In this document: piece after piece, positions 21 through 51,700 of the stretch | Numbering within the stretch: the first letter of the stretch is position 1 | Layout: each line of letters starts with the position of its first letter | NCBI GenBank assembly: GCA_029257435.1 | Contig: JARIBI010000217.1 | Coordinates: 1 to 64,000 of the forward strand | From: Sporosarcina sp. | Lineage (GTDB): Bacteria; Bacillota; Bacilli; Bacillales_A; Planococcaceae | Reading direction: 5' to 3' | Length of the DNA stretch: 64,000 nucleotides | The notes under the pieces: model-generated | The model's database searches: none | What the model was told of the DNA's origin: nothing | What the model saw: only the letters and a program-made list of their open reading frames with translations | Program-made: the position numbers and the translations under genes

Positions 21-959
21 ATGTCTATGATTCGTAAAAAGGTTTCTGTTATTGGTTCTGGATTTACGGGGGCTACGACTGCGTTTTTGCTTGCTCAGAA
101 AGAATTGTGTGACGTGGTGCTGGTGGATATCCCGAATATGGAGAGTTCGACTAAGGGGAAGGCGCTGGATATGCTGGAGGCGAGTCCTGTCCAAGGGTTC
201 GATGCTTCGATAACCGGTACGGCCGACTATGCGGACACCAAGGATTCGGACATCGTCATCATAACCGCGGGGATTGCACGCAAGCCTGGTATGAGCCGGG
301 ACGACCTTGTCCAGACGAATCAGAAGGTCATGAAGTCGGTGACGGCTGAAATCATCAAGCATTCACCTCATGCGACGATTCTTGTCTTAACGAATCCAGT
401 CGATGCGATGACGTATACGGTTTATAAAGAATCAGGATTGCCAAAAGAGCGAGTGATTGGTCAATCAGGAGTCTTGGATACGGCGCGCTTCCGCACATTC
501 GTTGCGCAAGAGCTGAACGTTTCAGTGAAAGACGTGTCTGGATTCGTGTTAGGCGGACATGGGGACGAAATGGTGCCGCTCGTTCGATATTCTGCTGCAG
601 GAGGGGTGCCACTAGATACGTTAATTTCCGCCGAGCGGATTGAAGAAATTGTGCAGCGGACGCGTAAAGGCGGTGCAGAGATCGTAAACCTTCTCGGCAA
701 TGGATCCGCGTATTATGCCCCGGCTGCTGCTCTCGTGGAAATGGCTGAATCCATCTTGAAAGACCAGAAGCGGATTATTCCTGCGATTGCTTATCTGGAA
801 GGCGAATTCGGGATGGATGGAATTTATTTGGGGGTTCCTACGGTTCTGGGGAAAAACGGAATTGAAAAAATTATTGAACTGGAGTTAACAGATGAAGAGA
901 AACAGGCGTTGCGTAAATCTGCAGACTCCGTGAAAGCGGTCATGCAAGTGCTCGCCTGA
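21..959 (+). CDS. mdh: Malate dehydrogenase
   Basis: NAD-dependent malate dehydrogenase of the TCA cycle, 312 residues, the LDH-like type found in Bacillus. It interconverts malate and oxaloacetate in the cytoplasm. Visible motifs: the Rossmann glycine-rich GSGFTG at about residues 12-17, the substrate loop [12 protein letters not shown] (Arg87, Arg93), the NPVD segment at about 125-128, the DTARF segment with Asp153, and the catalytic [10 protein letters not shown] with His180. An AAAGGGAG ribosome binding site at 6-13 supports the ATG at 21 (a second ATG lies at 27). In relatives it follows citZ-icd and precedes phoP, which fits the neighbour order here. A hairpin terminator follows. Identity is firm. 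Confidence 0.97.
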
Positions 960-46083: not shown

Positions 46084-48495
46084 ATGTACGTATCAACGAA
46101 ATGGCTAGAAAATTATGTAGATACAAAAGGCATCGCACCTGCGGATCTTGCTGAAAAGATTACACGTGCGGGCATTGAAGTCGATACAATCATCGATCGT
46201 TCTGAAGGTTTGACGAACATCGTCGTCGGACACGTTGAATCATGTGAAAAGCATCCGGAAGCAGACAAATTGAACATTTGCCAGGTGAACGTCGGTGAAG
46301 AAACGGTTCAAATCATTTGCGGTGCTCCAAACGTAGCTGCAGGACAAAATATTATTGCTGCACTTCCAGGTGCGAAATTGCCAGGCGGCATGAAGATTAA
46401 AAAAGCAAAACTGCGCGGAGAATTATCAAACGGCATGATTTGTTCTCTTCAAGAGCTTGGTGTTGAAGGGAAGACTGTTGCAAAAGCTTATGCAGAAGGC
46501 ATTTATGTCCTTCCAGCTGATGCTGAACCGGGTACTGATGCGCTCTCATTATTAGGATTGGATGACGTCATCTTAGAATTCGATTTGACACCGAACCGCG
46601 CAGATGCACTCAGCATGCTGGGAGTTGCGTATGAAGTCGGTGCGATTTTATCTGAAGATGTCAAGCTTCCGAAAATCGAGTACACCGCTTCAAATGAAAA
46701 AGCAGAAGATGTTTTGTCGTTGAGAGTAGACGCGCAAGAAGATAATCCGATGTACGTTGCAAAAGTTGTGAAAAATGTCAAAGTTGCTGAATCACCGCTT
46801 TGGCTTCAAAACTATTTGATGGCTGCAGGTGTTCGTCCTCATAACAACGTTGTCGACATTACAAATTTCGTATTGCTCGAGTACGGCCAGCCGTTGCACG
46901 CGTTTGACTACGATCGTCTAGCGACAAAGGAAATTGTTGTTCGTCACGCAGCTGAAGGTGAAAAGATGATAACACTGGATGATGTTGAACGCACATTACA
47001 TGCAGATCAGCTTGTGATTACAAATGGTAAAGAACCTGTAGCACTTGCGGGTGTCATGGGTGGAGCGAATTCCGAAGTTCACGACGGCACGACAACTGTT
47101 GTCATTGAATCCGCTTATTTTGCGCCTGCATCTGTACGTAAAACTTCAAAAGACGTCGGCTTGCGCAGTGATGCAAGTACACGTTTTGAAAAAGGCGTAG
47201 ATCCGAACCGAGTGGCTGAAGCTGCGGAACGTGCAGCGCAATTGATGGCTGAACTCGCTGGCGGAGAAGTGCTGACAGGATCCGTCCAATTCGATGAGTT
47301 GAATAAAGAATCTGCACGCATTTTACTGTCGCCGGACTATGTGAATCAGCGACTTGGAATGAAGATTCCAATGGACGAAATGGTCTCGATTTTAGGCCGA
47401 CTTCAAATTCCTGTGGAAGCAGCGAATGGCCAATTGGTCGTCGATGCGCCAACTCGCAGACAGGATTTGCGGATTCGAGAAGATTTAATCGAAGAAATTG
47501 CACGTCTATATGGGTACGATGAAATTCCGATGACACTGCCAATTGGCGAAAGTGTTCCGGGCGGATTGAACAGCTTCCAGGAAAAACGCCGTCTCGTTCG
47601 ACGTTATATGGAGAGCGCGGGTCTTTACCAGGCAATCACGTATTCACTAACTTCACGTGCGGAATCTCAAAGCTTTGCACTGGAGACAGCACCGGTTACT
47701 GAACTTCTTATGCCAATGAGTGAAGATCGCAGCATATTGCGCCAAAGCCTGCTTCCGCATTTGCTGGATGCAACAACATACAACGTAGCGCGTCGCATCG
47801 ATACGGTTTCGTTATATGAGACAGGTTCTGTATTCTTAGGAACGCAAGAAGATGGACTCCCGAAAGAAGTCGGTCACGTTGCAGCAGTGATCACGGGCAA
47901 ATGGGTTGATCACGCATGGCAGCAAGAAAATAAGAAAGTCGATTTCTTTGTAATGAAGGGAATCGTTGAAGGGCTTATGGATACACTTGGTCTTGCTGAC
48001 AAAGTAACGTATGCAAAAGCAACTCGCGACGGCTTGCATCCTGGTAGAACTGCAGACATTCTTTTGAATGGCTCAGTAGTCGGTGTGCTCGGTCAATTAC
48101 ACCCAACTGAACAGAAAAAACGCGATTTGAAAGAAACATATGTGATGGAAATGAACCTCGCATTGTTGTTAGCTGAATCAGCTGAAGCACTCGTCTATGA
48201 GCAAGTGCCCCGTTACCCTTCGATGTCACGTGATATCGCACTAGTCGTTTCAAAAGAAGAAGCGGCAGGAAGCTTAATGGATATTATCCAAGAAGCAGGC
48301 GGCAAATTGTTGAAAAACGTAGCTGTATTCGACTTGTACGAAGGGGACAAAGTCGAGGAAGGCACGAAGTCACTCGCATTCTCGTTGACGTACTTCGATC
48401 CAGAACGTACATTGACAGACGAGGAAGTCGTGACACGTCATGACAAAGTACTCGCTGCATTGAAAGACAAATCCGGCGCAGTCTTGCGTGGCTGA
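46084..48495 (+). CDS. pheT: Phenylalanyl-tRNA synthetase beta subunit
   Basis: 803 residues, full length. N-terminal EMAP/tRNA-binding domain (IVVGHVESCEKHPEADKLNIC), B3/B4 editing domain (NPMYVAKVVKNV, PHNNVVDITNFVLLEYGQPLHAFD), B5, the catalytic-like core, and a C-terminal ferredoxin-fold anticodon-binding domain (YPSMSRDIALVV, near 700-800). AGGAGG ribosome binding site before ATG 46084. Confidence 0.97.
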   Translation: MYVSTKWLENYVDTKGIAPADLAEKITRAGIEVDTIIDRSEGLTNIVVGHVESCEKHPEADKLNICQVNVGEETVQIICGAPNVAAGQNIIAALPGAKLPGGMKIKKAKLRGELSNGMICSLQELGVEGKTVAKAYAEGIYVLPADAEPGTDALSLLGLDDVILEFDLTPNRADALSMLGVAYEVGAILSEDVKLPKIEYTASNEKAEDVLSLRVDAQEDNPMYVAKVVKNVKVAESPLWLQNYLMAAGVRPHNNVVDITNFVLLEYGQPLHAFDYDRLATKEIVVRHAAEGEKMITLDDVERTLHADQLVITNGKEPVALAGVMGGANSEVHDGTTTVVIESAYFAPASVRKTSKDVGLRSDASTRFEKGVDPNRVAEAAERAAQLMAELAGGEVLTGSVQFDELNKESARILLSPDYVNQRLGMKIPMDEMVSILGRLQIPVEAANGQLVVDAPTRRQDLRIREDLIEEIARLYGYDEIPMTLPIGESVPGGLNSFQEKRRLVRRYMESAGLYQAITYSLTSRAESQSFALETAPVTELLMPMSEDRSILRQSLLPHLLDATTYNVARRIDTVSLYETGSVFLGTQEDGLPKEVGHVAAVITGKWVDHAWQQENKKVDFFVMKGIVEGLMDTLGLADKVTYAKATRDGLHPGRTADILLNGSVVGVLGQLHPTEQKKRDLKETYVMEMNLALLLAESAEALVYEQVPRYPSMSRDIALVVSKEEAAGSLMDIIQEAGGKLLKNVAVFDLYEGDKVEEGTKSLAFSLTYFDPERTLTDEEVVTRHDKVLAALKDKSGAVLRG

Positions 48496-48505
48496 GGGTA
48501 GATAA

Positions 48506-48550
48506 AAAACAGAGGGAGAACCGGTATACACCGGTTCTCCCTCTGTTTTT
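48506..48550 (+). terminator. Terminator after pheT
   Basis: AAACAGAGGGAGAACCGGT pairs almost perfectly with ACCGGTTCTCCCTCTGTTT, followed by five T. Confidence 0.93.
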
Positions 48551-48590
48551 GTATGCATTTAGTTGGTTGGGCAGGGTAGGGGCGGCAAGC

Positions 48591-49031
48591 AACCCGCTCG
48601 TTCCGGAGTGGACCCCGCTCATTTCGGAGTGGAACCCGCCCGTTCGGAGGAGGAACCCGCTCATTCTGGTGTGGAACCCGCTCATTACGGACGGCGACCC
48701 GCTCGTTCCGGTGTAGAACGCGCTCATTACAGACGGCGACCCGCTCGTTTCGGTGTAGAACGCGCTCATTACAGACGGCGACCCGCTCGTTCCGGAGTGG
48801 ACCCCGCTCATTACGGACGACGCCCCGCTCGTTTCGGTGTGGGACCCGCTCGTTACAGACGACGACCCGCCCGTTCCGGTGTAGACCCCGCTCGTTACAG
48901 ACGACGACCCGCTCGTTTCGGTGTAGACCCCGCTCATTACAGACGGCGACCTGCTCGTTCCGGTGTAGAACCCGCTCATTACGGGCAGCGACCCGCTCGT
49001 TCGGAGGAGGAACCCGCTCATTTCACAAGCC
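48591..49031. repeat. 21-bp tandem repeat array 1 (21 units)
   Basis: Exactly 21 units of 21 bases (441 bases), each opening with a version of AACCCGCTCRTT followed by a 9-base variable part. Many units alternate between two types, one with CCGGTGTAG-like and one with ACAGACGGCG-like tails, giving a 42-base higher-order period. Because 21 is a multiple of 3, frames on both strands stay open, but the predicted heptapeptide repeats (PARSGVE / PAHYRRR) look like a by-product. A GCATTTAGT leader at 48555-48563 precedes it, as in array 2. Confidence 0.92.
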
Positions 49032-49289
49032 ACATTGTCGCGGAACTAAAACTTGTACATACCGAAACTGTCTCGTGACCAATTAATCTTTAACCATTTT
49101 CATACATAAAACTTATATTAATTTGTGTGCTTCGCTATCCCAAAGCACTTAGTTACTGAGTCTATATACTTCACAACCTACCAATAGTCTAAAGTGAATT
49201 GTGTCAAAAACGCGATAATGCTATTTTCGACCAAAGCCTTCCATTGCTGTGCATGAACCGCTACACTAATGAAAAAAGGGGTGCCGCCA
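49032..49289. other. Spacer between array 1 and the NERD gene
   Basis: AT-rich, without a recognisable gene. It contains ATTAATTTGTGTGCTTCGCT (49117-49136) and GCACTTAGT, closely similar to sequence before array 2 (50408-50427, 18 of 20 identical, then GCATTTAGT). No clear promoter is identified for the following gene. Confidence 0.5.
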
Positions 49290-50243
49290 TTGATCTATAA
49301 ACATCGAACAAAGCCAAGACTATTAAGAGGACTACTTGCTTTAGAGAAACGACTTTCAACAACACATGAAAAATACGAGATCATTCAGAATGAGCTGTAT
49401 AAAATCCGTGCTGGCTATGGAGGTGAACAAGAATACGATCGCTACATGAAAGAAGTCCGCACTGACTACCCACACGCCATACTCCACGATCTATCCCTAC
49501 AACACGAAGGCGTTCATTTTCAAATCGATTCGCTTTTCATCACACCAGACTCCATTATCATTTCGGAAATTAAAAACATTGCAGACAAGATTATCATCAA
49601 AGCCAATCCCACTCAATTTATGAAACAGTTACCTGACGGAACGCGAATGCTATTCCGAAGCCCCATTGCCGAAGTGGAACGCAAAATTCAGTTTCTCGAA
49701 AAGTGGCTAGCTAGCAAGAATGTACATGTGAAGGTGAAGGGGCTCATTGTATTTGCGTATAATAATGAAATGCATATCGAAGAAAAGCCATCTATGGAAG
49801 TAATTACAGCCTATGAGGCACCTACTTATTTTCGATCGTTAATCCAAGAAGCCAAGTTATTAGGGAGCCAAGACATTGCAAAAATTGCAAAGGCTCTAGC
49901 GCATGGACATAAAGAGTATAATCCATATCCAGTAACTGCTCGATTTAAGATTGACGAACGGGATATCAAGGGAGGGGTATTTTGTTCAGAATGTGAAATT
50001 CAAACGATTATGAGATGGTCTGACTTGAGGTGGCATTGCCAAGTCTGCGGATTACGAGAAATTGGGAGTCATCAAAATGCGGTACTAGACTGGTTCATGC
50101 TAATGTCAGGTCCTTTGACCAATCGAAAGTTTTGTGAGTTTACCGGGATAACCAATCGCCACACGGCAAAAAGAATGTTAGCCCGATCAGATATTCAGAT
50201 GCTAGGAAGGGGGCGGGGCAGTCGTTACACGACGTTAACTTAG
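49290..50243 (+). CDS. NERD-domain protein with zinc ribbon and C-terminal winged-helix-like region
   Basis: 317 residues from TTG 49290 (GGGGTG six bases upstream); ATG 49269 would add seven. The NERD nuclease-related domain spans about 35-160: GEQEYDRYMKEV, HDLSL and the catalytic-like pattern FQIDSLFITPDSIIISEIKN (D..ExK of the restriction-endonuclease fold). Then a zinc ribbon CSEC ... CQVC (about 237-267) and a C-terminal stretch (about 275-317) TNRKFCEFTGITNRHTAKRML that reads like a helix-turn-helix. NERD proteins are proposed DNA-processing nucleases; a defence role is speculation. It stands alone between two repeat arrays and interrupts the pheT-rnhC order. Confidence 0.75.
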   Translation: MIYKHRTKPRLLRGLLALEKRLSTTHEKYEIIQNELYKIRAGYGGEQEYDRYMKEVRTDYPHAILHDLSLQHEGVHFQIDSLFITPDSIIISEIKNIADKIIIKANPTQFMKQLPDGTRMLFRSPIAEVERKIQFLEKWLASKNVHVKVKGLIVFAYNNEMHIEEKPSMEVITAYEAPTYFRSLIQEAKLLGSQDIAKIAKALAHGHKEYNPYPVTARFKIDERDIKGGVFCSECEIQTIMRWSDLRWHCQVCGLREIGSHQNAVLDWFMLMSGPLTNRKFCEFTGITNRHTAKRMLARSDIQMLGRGRGSRYTTLT

Positions 50244-50281
50244 CTCCCTGATGTAAAGCAAAATACAAATGATGATTTGTG

Positions 50282-50310
50282 CGCTTCGCCTTGCGAAGCG
50301 TATTTATTTA
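50282..50310 (+). terminator. Hairpin after the NERD gene
   Basis: CGCTTCGC (50282-50289), loop CTT, GCGAAGCG (50293-50300), then TATTTATTTAT. A weak intrinsic terminator, and part of a repeated TTTGTGYGCTTCGC word also seen near array 1. Confidence 0.65.
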
Positions 50311-50468
50311 TCTTGCATCATTCTGACTAACTGCCCGCGGCAAGCCATTTTCTTCAATCCATTTGCAAGCTCGCGACCAGTCCATCTTTCCCAAATTCAC
50401 AACCAAGATTAATTGGTGTGCTCCGCTCCGCTGCGCATTTAGTGATGGGGAGTGGGAATCTATAGGGG
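50311..50468. other. Spacer between the NERD gene and array 2
   Basis: No gene seen. Contains ATTAATTGGTGTGCTCCGCT (50408-50427) and the GCATTTAGT leader (50435-50443) shared with the region around array 1. Confidence 0.5.
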
Positions 50469-50720
50469 AACCCGCTCAATCCGGTTCAGAACCCGCTCAT
50501 TCCACGCCAGAACCCGCTCGTTCCCCCGGGGAACCCGCTCGTTCACCGTCAGAACCCGCTCGTTTCCCCGGGCAACCCGCTCGTTCACCGCCAGAACCCG
50601 CTCGTTCCCCTGGGCAACCCGCTCATTCCACGTCAGAACCCGCTCGTTCCCCCGGGCAACCCGCTCGTTCACCGTCGGAACCCGCTCGTTCCCCCGGGCA
50701 ACCCGCTCATTCCACGCCAG
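50469..50720. repeat. 21-bp tandem repeat array 2 (12 units)
   Basis: Exactly 12 units of 21 bases (252 bases). Each starts AACCCGCTCRTT (first unit CAAT). The 9-base tails alternate mainly between CCCCCGGGC-like and CACCGTCAG-like, again a 42-base period. The core is identical to that of array 1 but the tails differ. Open frames on both strands are by-products. It ends 30 bases before the end of rnhC on the minus strand. Confidence 0.93.
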
Positions 50721-50749
50721 AACTCACACTAACCTCCAAAAACCCTCAA

Positions 50750-51700
50750 TCACCCACGCTTCTTAGTCGCCAACACCGCGGCCTTCTTCGCATTCGCAAA
50801 ATGCCACTTCGTCATTGAACGTAAAAACGGTTCGCCTTTCGAAAGTAAAATTGAAGCCGCAGTTTCATCCACCTTCTTGCCAGCGCCCTTAGGAAGTGTG
50901 CGGCCCGCCAGTCCACTCAATCGGTCCATTTCATCCAAAAATGCGACGCGGGCGATAATCGATGCTGCTGCGACTGCGACATGCAATCCTTCCGCTTTCG
51001 TCGCAAACAACACATTTTCCCGCACAATCTCAGGTTCGTTCTTTAAATGGTTGTAATACACACCGCGCTCCGCAAATTGGTCAATCAAAATGTAATCGGG
51101 ATGTTCATCTTCCAATTTACGCAGCACATGGCGGATCGCCTGATTGTGGAGCAGCGCTTTAATTTTCCCTTGAGACCAGCCTTTAGCCTGCACCGTGTTG
51201 TATTTCTCGTTCTGCAGGGTTAGCACACTGTATGTCAACACGGACTTCAAATCCGGGGCAATCGATCTCATATAAGGATCCGTCAGCAACTTCGAGTCTT
51301 TCACACCAAGCTCAGTGACAAGAGGAATCTGATCTGCCCGGACATAACAAGCGCACACCGTCACGGGTCCAAAGAAATCGCCCGTCCCGGTTTCATCCGA
51401 ACCAATCACAGATAACAGCTCCAGCCGATCGGGAAGAGGTGCGCCTTTTGCAGCAACTTTATTCTTTGAAGGCGCAGCGGATGCACTCGAAGCGTCACCT
51501 GCTTCCCATTTCGCTGCTTCCGTCTCAGCGCCGCCGCCTTGAAATAGAACTTTCCCAGAACGATACGCAGTAATCGAGGCATTTGCTGTTTTCGCGGCAA
51601 ACACGACACCCGGAGCGTTGCGCTTCACAACATCGCTCGCATAATATGCTTTTAACGCAGTTAATTTTTCATCAGATAAAATCAGTACAGAATTTGCCAT
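50750..51700 (-). CDS. rnhC: Ribonuclease HIII
   Basis: 316 residues. N-terminal TBP-like domain (about 1-75), Ala/Ser-rich linker (about 72-90), and RNase H fold with SVIGSDETGTGDFFGPV containing the first catalytic Asp-Glu of HIII enzymes. Later motifs LIDQFAER and AAASIIARVAFLDEMDRLS are typical. Removes RNA in RNA-DNA hybrids. ATG 51700 follows AAAGGAT. Next to pheT in B. subtilis; here separated by the array-NERD-array insertion. Confidence 0.94.
   Translation of the reverse strand: MANSVLILSDEKLTALKAYYASDVVKRNAPGVVFAAKTANASITAYRSGKVLFQGGGAETEAAKWEAGDASSASAAPSKNKVAAKGAPLPDRLELLSVIGSDETGTGDFFGPVTVCACYVRADQIPLVTELGVKDSKLLTDPYMRSIAPDLKSVLTYSVLTLQNEKYNTVQAKGWSQGKIKALLHNQAIRHVLRKLEDEHPDYILIDQFAERGVYYNHLKNEPEIVRENVLFATKAEGLHVAVAAASIIARVAFLDEMDRLSGLAGRTLPKGAGKKVDETAASILLSKGEPFLRSMTKWHFANAKKAAVLATKKRG

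Follow-up and report, generated by a model that had tools for sequence, protein, structure and literature searches.

Tandem Repeat Arrays Paired With NERD-Domain Genes in Sporosarcina and Other Bacilli

Introduction

The described system closest to the locus analyzed here is RAYT/REP, in which an enzyme gene is flanked by its own cognate repeats, further copies of these repeats are dispersed at extragenic sites, protein and repeat vary together, and the gene evolves faster than its neighbors (PMC2817692, in the part of the article drawn on here). All of these traits are also found in the system presented below. According to the same part of the article, however, the RAYT enzyme is a tyrosine transposase and REPs are palindromes in inverted orientation, whereas the protein studied here combines a NERD domain of the PD-(D/E)XK type with a zinc-ribbon-like segment and a predicted winged helix, and its repeats are direct tandem units of 20–21 bp. 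A further difference from RAYT/REP as portrayed there is that the array positions (slots) examined in this study remain stable while the repeat core changes (PMC2817692).

CRISPR arrays likewise consist of regular repeats adjoining a nuclease gene, but the arrays reported here have a period of 20–21 bp, a 12-bp core and drifting 9-bp tails that recur within arrays. Homing endonuclease genes are nuclease genes embedded in their own recognition sequence. The locus resembles them in that a putative nuclease gene lies within a sequence that its product may recognize; it differs in that the target is an array, that many unoccupied arrays coexist with the occupied ones, and that in several groups the gene is found at a syntenic position. 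In PRDM9-type systems, sites follow a rapidly changing DNA-reading protein, and iteron-type systems consist of helix-phased repeated binding sites. With both, the likeness is one of analogy, namely a rapidly changing reader with sites that follow it or a helix-phased repeat, and we know of no domain or replication function held in common.

Among bacterial NERD proteins, SmdA of Staphylococcus aureus is a membrane-anchored cell-division protein without several of the most conserved NERD residues, and to the knowledge of its authors the importance of the NERD domain had been neither studied nor verified in any bacterial protein before (PMC9040797, in part). It shares the name of the domain with the protein described here, and the cited part of that article makes no mention of arrays for SmdA. 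A NERD domain next to an insertion sequence is mentioned in the cited part of PMC4057527. A search of the open-access literature, preprints aside, yielded no description of NERD genes paired with arrays. The observations presented here point to such a pairing, between a NERD protein and DNA repeats particular to its gene, which is undescribed as far as this literature shows.

Results

The locus is part of a 64-kb stretch of Sporosarcina DNA, which is referred to in its whole length as the window. Its features are:

46084–48495, + strand: pheT (name from the preliminary reading and from gene order conserved in relatives)
48591–49022, + strand: array 1, 21 units of 21 bp, each with core AACCCGCTCRTT and a 9-bp tail, upstream of the NERD gene
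49269–50243, + strand: NERD gene, 324 aa, between array 1 and array 2
49413–49754, + strand: NERD domain, residues 49–162 (Pfam match and conservation)
49974–50054, + strand: zinc-ribbon-like segment with invariant C239, C242, C257 and C260
50064–50240, + strand: predicted winged helix, helices 268–278, 285–292 and 297–305, wing strands 309–312 and 319–322 (AlphaFold2 model)
50469–50720, + strand: array 2, 12 units of 21 bp, core AACCCGCTCRTT, tails different from array 1
50750–51700, − strand: rnhC (name obtained as for pheT)

Coordinates, TRF and Pfam bear out what the preliminary description of this DNA had reported, namely that a NERD gene located between pheT and rnhC has a 21-bp array on either side, of 21 and 12 units, and that both arrays have a 12-base core in common, each with its own 9-base tails. 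The spacing in array 1 is exactly 21 bp throughout, with some cores mutated, and array 2 is in direct orientation relative to it. Tails recur and alternate inside the arrays. At a score of at least 50, TRF revealed no tandem array in the 64-kb window besides these two. In the genome of the window, 127 exact copies of the core were counted and not one of the reversed control, which excludes chance; fourteen places in this genome hold runs of at least three cores. Among the ORFs listed in 44–54 kb of the window no cas-like gene was recognized by eye, and the combination of conserved repeats, unique spacers and cas genes that characterizes CRISPR-Cas is not found. A role of the tails in hairpin or RNA formation was considered and rejected, as their self-complementarity is no greater than that of shuffled sequences.

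The window protein has a single Pfam match, NERD (PF08378), at residues 49–162 with an E-value of 8.6e-17. G49, G52, E53, D87, E100 and K102 of this domain are invariant among the aligned relatives. The active-site residues and the four cysteines are invariant in 58/58 full-length proteins and in 47/47 proteins of a second alignment; this conservation applies to intact NERD proteins only, as 9 of the 67 translations in the first alignment fell below 270 aa due to frameshifts, stops or contig ends, had no full-length reading and were left out. The AlphaFold2 model (mean pLDDT 92.8) displays three parts: the NERD region folds as an N-terminal alpha/beta domain, the cysteine segment comes next, and the C terminus forms a module of three helices plus wing. 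Foldseek searches with this model gave weak matches, none at E ≤0.001, with Card1 and the nickase Nt.BspD6I on top, both of which we take to be PD-(D/E)XK enzymes; an additional 61-column match to DIP2311 was returned without its location in the model. Invariant E53, D87 and E100-x-K102 correspond to the residues of the PD-(D/E)XK superfamily, for which the Foldseek support is weak, and the window protein is presumed to be a putative nuclease of this type. The cysteine segment probably binds zinc, judging from its four invariant residues. A Y1 tyrosine (HUH) transposase, as in RAYT, is not encoded here: NERD is the only domain matched, and its PD-(D/E)XK-type residues are invariant. NCBIfam contained no convincing match for the window protein. 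No transposase match was obtained for it either, and with flanking arrays that are direct and not inverted the locus does not qualify as an insertion sequence or transposon. The best PADLOC hits, MkoA (E 0.0075) and DndC (E 0.028), were both weak and partial and do not identify an anti-phage defense system. Two NERD genes of G023 (L106, 9769–10704 and 17036–17970) are broken in their reading frame; sequencing error is a possible cause, this assembly being 83% complete with 9% contamination.

The order pheS-pheT-array-NERD-array-rnhC is common to five other Sporosarcina species, namely Sporosarcina sp. BI001-red, S. gallistercoris, S. aquimarina, sp. D27 and sp. ZBG7A. Across these, identity to the window amounts to 85–86% for NERD, 94–97% for pheT and 90–92% for rnhC; as reported for RAYT genes, the NERD gene thus evolves faster than its neighbors. 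In a separate set of 20 relatives, the fetched pheT-rnhC stretches contained no NERD match. Six of these 20 (G008, G022, G038, G041, G014 and G054) carry at least one array between pheT and rnhC, nine possess both genes with no array detected, and for five the fetched stretch did not include pheT. One of the latter is G037, where an array with core AACGAGCCGTT adjoins rnhC near a contig end (L120, 1173–1506). In G008 and G022 the gap between pheT and rnhC measures 547 and 578 bp and holds two or three arrays whose cores are different. The preliminary description had reasoned that relatives without the NERD gene that still carry one continuous array would make the link between gene and arrays accidental; this applies by half, as arrays are indeed present in G008 and G022, but with those other cores.

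NERD proteins of this kind occur in 65 of the 398 Bacilli genomes sampled. Of 132 NERD genes with this architecture, many of them orthologues and in this sense not independent, 118 have tandem arrays of 20–22 bp within ~1.5 kb, 62 of the 132 on both sides; for 14 no array was detected at the threshold used. In the first set of 67 genes, arrays were present on both sides of 37, on one side of 25 and absent from 5, after removal of L086–L089 (duplicates of L093–L096) and L040–L042 (duplicates of L055, L051 and L056). The second set comprised 66 genes, 57 with arrays, 26 of these on both sides, and included one duplicate (L223 of L110) that was subtracted for the total of 132; arrays accompanied 28/29 genes from Sporosarcina, 11/13 from other genera of the family and 18/24 from other families of the class. 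Free of duplicates, the totals with an array were 63/65, 37/43 and 18/24, respectively. The 65 Sporosarcina genes were examined out of more than 150 among the matches listed, and the near-identical L090 (S. koreensis) and L098 (G008) were both counted.

As a control, random 3.9-kb windows were drawn from 20 NERD-bearing genomes outside Sporosarcina; 10/100 contained an array, or 12/100 if overlaps are included, against which the 18/24 for NERD genes outside the family give a Fisher p of 2.8e-9. For single genomes, the random windows with an array numbered 8/50 in G038 and 1/50 in G008, despite the NERD genes of the latter. Windows from genomes without a match to the protein yielded 3/100, a borderline difference to NERD-bearing genomes (p 0.08 against 10/100, 0.03 against 12/100). 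Around 20 Sporosarcina loci, 43 arrays lie at most 500 bp from the NERD gene (2.1 per kb) and none at 2.5–4 kb; 45 arrays were counted in 399 kb away from NERD genes, with some loci counted twice and the duplicates L086–L089 still included. The preliminary description held that arrays spread widely with no association to NERD genes would sever the link; they are widespread, yet strongly associated with these genes, and the link persists.

NERD paralogues of 30–64% identity are also bracketed by arrays of 20 or 21 bp, with different cores. Triplets of the AACGAG core form were detected in 17/61 Sporosarcina genomes and in 21/261 genomes of the family, three of them outside the genus, and other lineages carry other cores. 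In G133, G250 and G233, which belong to other genera, the reversed control GAGCAA formed many triplets at a spacing of 19–22 bp; in G233, GAGCAACTTT arrays flank a NERD gene (L190). One of the longest arrays encountered (~1.4 kb; L184, 4–1391) immediately precedes a NERD gene in G110.

The arrays to the left and right of a NERD gene share 6-mers in direct orientation, with a mean cosine of 0.67 over 37 genes versus 0.012 for inverted comparison and 0.066 between genes; the two inverted flanking repeats of RAYT/REP are accordingly not found. For 25/37 genes the best-matching array was the own partner. Protein and core vary together: a shared core (cosine >0.3) was found for 36/36 protein pairs of at least 80% identity versus 4/115 pairs of 50–60%, and protein similarity correlated with core similarity for 56 proteins (Spearman 0.36, 0/500 permutations). 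After dereplication at 80%, which leaves 40 of the 56 proteins, this RAYT/REP-like co-evolution is weaker (Mantel r 0.16, 8/500 permutations). When the protein was scanned in windows, the winged-helix window 291–320 attained nominal significance only (5/500; family-wise 68/500), and windows 111–140, 161–190 and 171–200 in the N-terminal two thirds scored above it. For Sporosarcina genes with a clearly legible core (at least four readings and at least 30% agreement of the core's 3′ part), the wing RAGSVY pairs with CTCAAGC in the 3′ half of the core in 4/4 cases, RKA-type wings with CTCATAA in 8/8, and GRG-type wings with CTCGTT or CTC(C/G)ATT in 10/10, including the L107/L109 proteins, which share 43–44% identity with the window protein. 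With its few independent switches, this agreement of wing and core sequences is suggestive. Natural NERD alleles at site B have the cores AAGCGCTC, AATCCGCTCAAGC and AACCGCTCC. In 613 near-identical unit pairs, the changes per column were 37 in the core versus 126 in the tail (~3.4 times fewer), a comparison favoring low core variation as the pairs were picked for core likeness with a tolerance of three mismatches. The core is constrained, and the tails drift freely. From its own reverse complement the core differs at four bases.

In Sporosarcina loci selected because they contain NERD genes, arrays lying over 1.5 kb away from such a gene were classed as solo, and most of these match a NERD core of their own genome (29/39; for random other genomes mean 12.3, maximum 15 in 21 draws). 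Six of the 39 match only the NERD core of another genome and four match none; with only part of the NERD loci of these genomes fetched, ten in total are thus unmatched in their own genome. In syntenic solo slots, an array was present in 124/126 pairwise comparisons, which by our own grouping come down to about seven slots, none farther than ~10 kb from a NERD gene, and involve non-independent orthologous loci; the core was different in 71 of the 124 at a cosine threshold of 0.35. Both comparisons without an array had partly unaligned flanks. One slot is occupied by AACCCGCTCGTT in four species and by AATCCGCTCAAGC in G020; G022 has a further two cores there, the second of which is close to the core of G008 (cosine 0.54). 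Many NERD sites are likewise syntenic across species.

The longest exact stretch shared between arrays had a median of 15 bp both within and between genomes (means 16.1 vs 15.3), with a few stretches of 31–34 bp common to arrays inside one genome. Recent copying between loci therefore has little support, the stretches within a genome being hardly longer than those between genomes, and cores appear to change in place. Of the interpretations the preliminary description had offered for what it saw as a discrete unit, the mobile cassette finds no support, in view of the synteny of many NERD sites and of the examined solo slots and of so little recent multi-unit copying, and the defense island finds none either, with housekeeping neighbors and weak, partial PADLOC hits. 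Its third suggestion, a repeat-dependent genetic system, is supported, with arrays bracketing or adjoining 118 of 132 NERD genes and cores that differ between diverged paralogues.

Discussion

Taken together, the NERD-array system works like RAYT/REP in its logic, with neither the enzyme nor the repeat type in common. We consider it probable that the NERD gene encodes a sequence-specific DNA-binding nuclease with a cognate family of arrays that is maintained in place. From the pairing of protein and core we infer that the NERD protein binds the arrays, and those on both sides of its gene presumably are its cognate binding platforms. The same protein would also work in trans, on the solo arrays; these occupy fixed intergenic positions that are rarely located between divergent genes. 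Reading of the core would most likely be performed by the winged helix and its wing, perhaps with the nuclease domain. A unit of 20–21 bp corresponds to about two helical turns of B-DNA, which would place the repeated cores on one face of the DNA. Cleavage and writing of arrays by NERD are hypothesized: nicking or cutting inside an array would provoke slippage or unequal exchange, units matching the resident protein would be amplified where they stand, and the array would keep its position while its core follows the resident NERD proteins. Such nick-driven amplification in place is the mechanism that we would prefer, as a hypothesis, for stable positions with changing cores. Possibly, bound arrays also have a role beneficial to the host. 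The wider proposal, that Bacilli carry an undescribed system in which each of several paralogous NERD nucleases specifies, in trans and in place, the sequence of one family of arrays, and in which slots are rewritten one core after another without moving once the resident specificity changes, is put forward tentatively, as a possibility that falls somewhat short of being probable.

The main rival is an architectural or regulatory reading, according to which NERD binds 3′ and convergent slots as roadblocks, insulators or supercoil-handling sites, and selection on the slot, not nuclease-driven amplification, keeps the core bindable by the resident protein. It would equally explain that slots stay while cores change and that copying between loci has left so little trace. 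The surroundings of solo arrays also agree with it, most of them lying in convergent or co-directional gaps and rarely in divergent ones (11 convergent, 1 divergent and 17 co-directional, against baseline gaps of 33, 34 and 128); for 55 arrays chosen by pattern, 21 gaps were convergent, 4 divergent and 27 co-directional, with one neighbor missing for 3 (binomial p 0.0009 for 21 vs 4). However, a convergent bias is also expected from promoter avoidance alone, orthologous slots are counted repeatedly here, and both the invariant nuclease site and the arrays on either side of the gene are left unexplained. We regard this reading as rather unlikely. An idea based on replication polarity was rejected, array orientation being mixed along the single-contig chromosome of G038 (by inspection, origin not located).

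Less likely still are selfish repeats which NERD mobilizes, as RAYT does REP or as in homing, with arrays and gene spreading to new sites. Cognate repeats on either side of the gene, solo copies scattered through the genome and a rate of evolution above that of the neighbors would fit such spreading, as would the few 31–34-bp stretches shared within a genome, the other arrays without a NERD gene at pheT-rnhC of G008 and G022, and the finding that 10/19 array loci of G038 lack a counterpart among the fetched array loci of G023, a comparison made with one core pattern, so that arrays with other cores may occupy those sites. Yet synteny across species is seen for the examined solo slots and for many NERD sites, shared stretches hardly exceed background, and an array was missing from a slot in only the two comparisons with partly unaligned flanks. 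That the protein is a toxic nuclease and the arrays a DNA sponge, whose titration makes the nuclease addictive, would account for conserved active-site residues and for many binding-like sites in cis and trans, but a Sporosarcina genome, G042, contains no match to the protein at E 1e-15, and for 25/67 genes an array was detected on just one side; we judge this improbable. Hardly credible, finally, are neutral minisatellites of long intergenic regions that lie near NERD genes by accident: arrays are common in such regions, as the 45 found in 399 kb away from NERD demonstrate, and tails drift freely, but enrichment within 500 bp, association across the class, a direct core shared by both sides and its constraint all speak against it.

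For NERD proteins, which are common in the Bacilli sampled and whose domain, according to the cited part of PMC9040797, had not been assigned a verified bacterial function before, the pairing with arrays offers a testable function. It also provides a system with many natural alleles in which the co-evolution of DNA-binding specificity and genomic repeats can be studied, and a possible cause of part of the tandem repeats in Bacilli genomes. If the wider proposal of slots rewritten in place is true, the dispersed DNA repeats would be both written and maintained by a protein of the bacterium to which they are cognate.

The possibility that the arrays are coding sequence was rejected, since arrays with a 20-bp period exist and the long ORFs are explained by the seven-codon unit. 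In the window, such ORFs extend across the arrays at 48284–49033 (−), 48563–49078 (+) and 50363–50818 (+), because 21 bp equal seven codons, and gene callers may annotate array-spanning ORFs of this type as repeat proteins.
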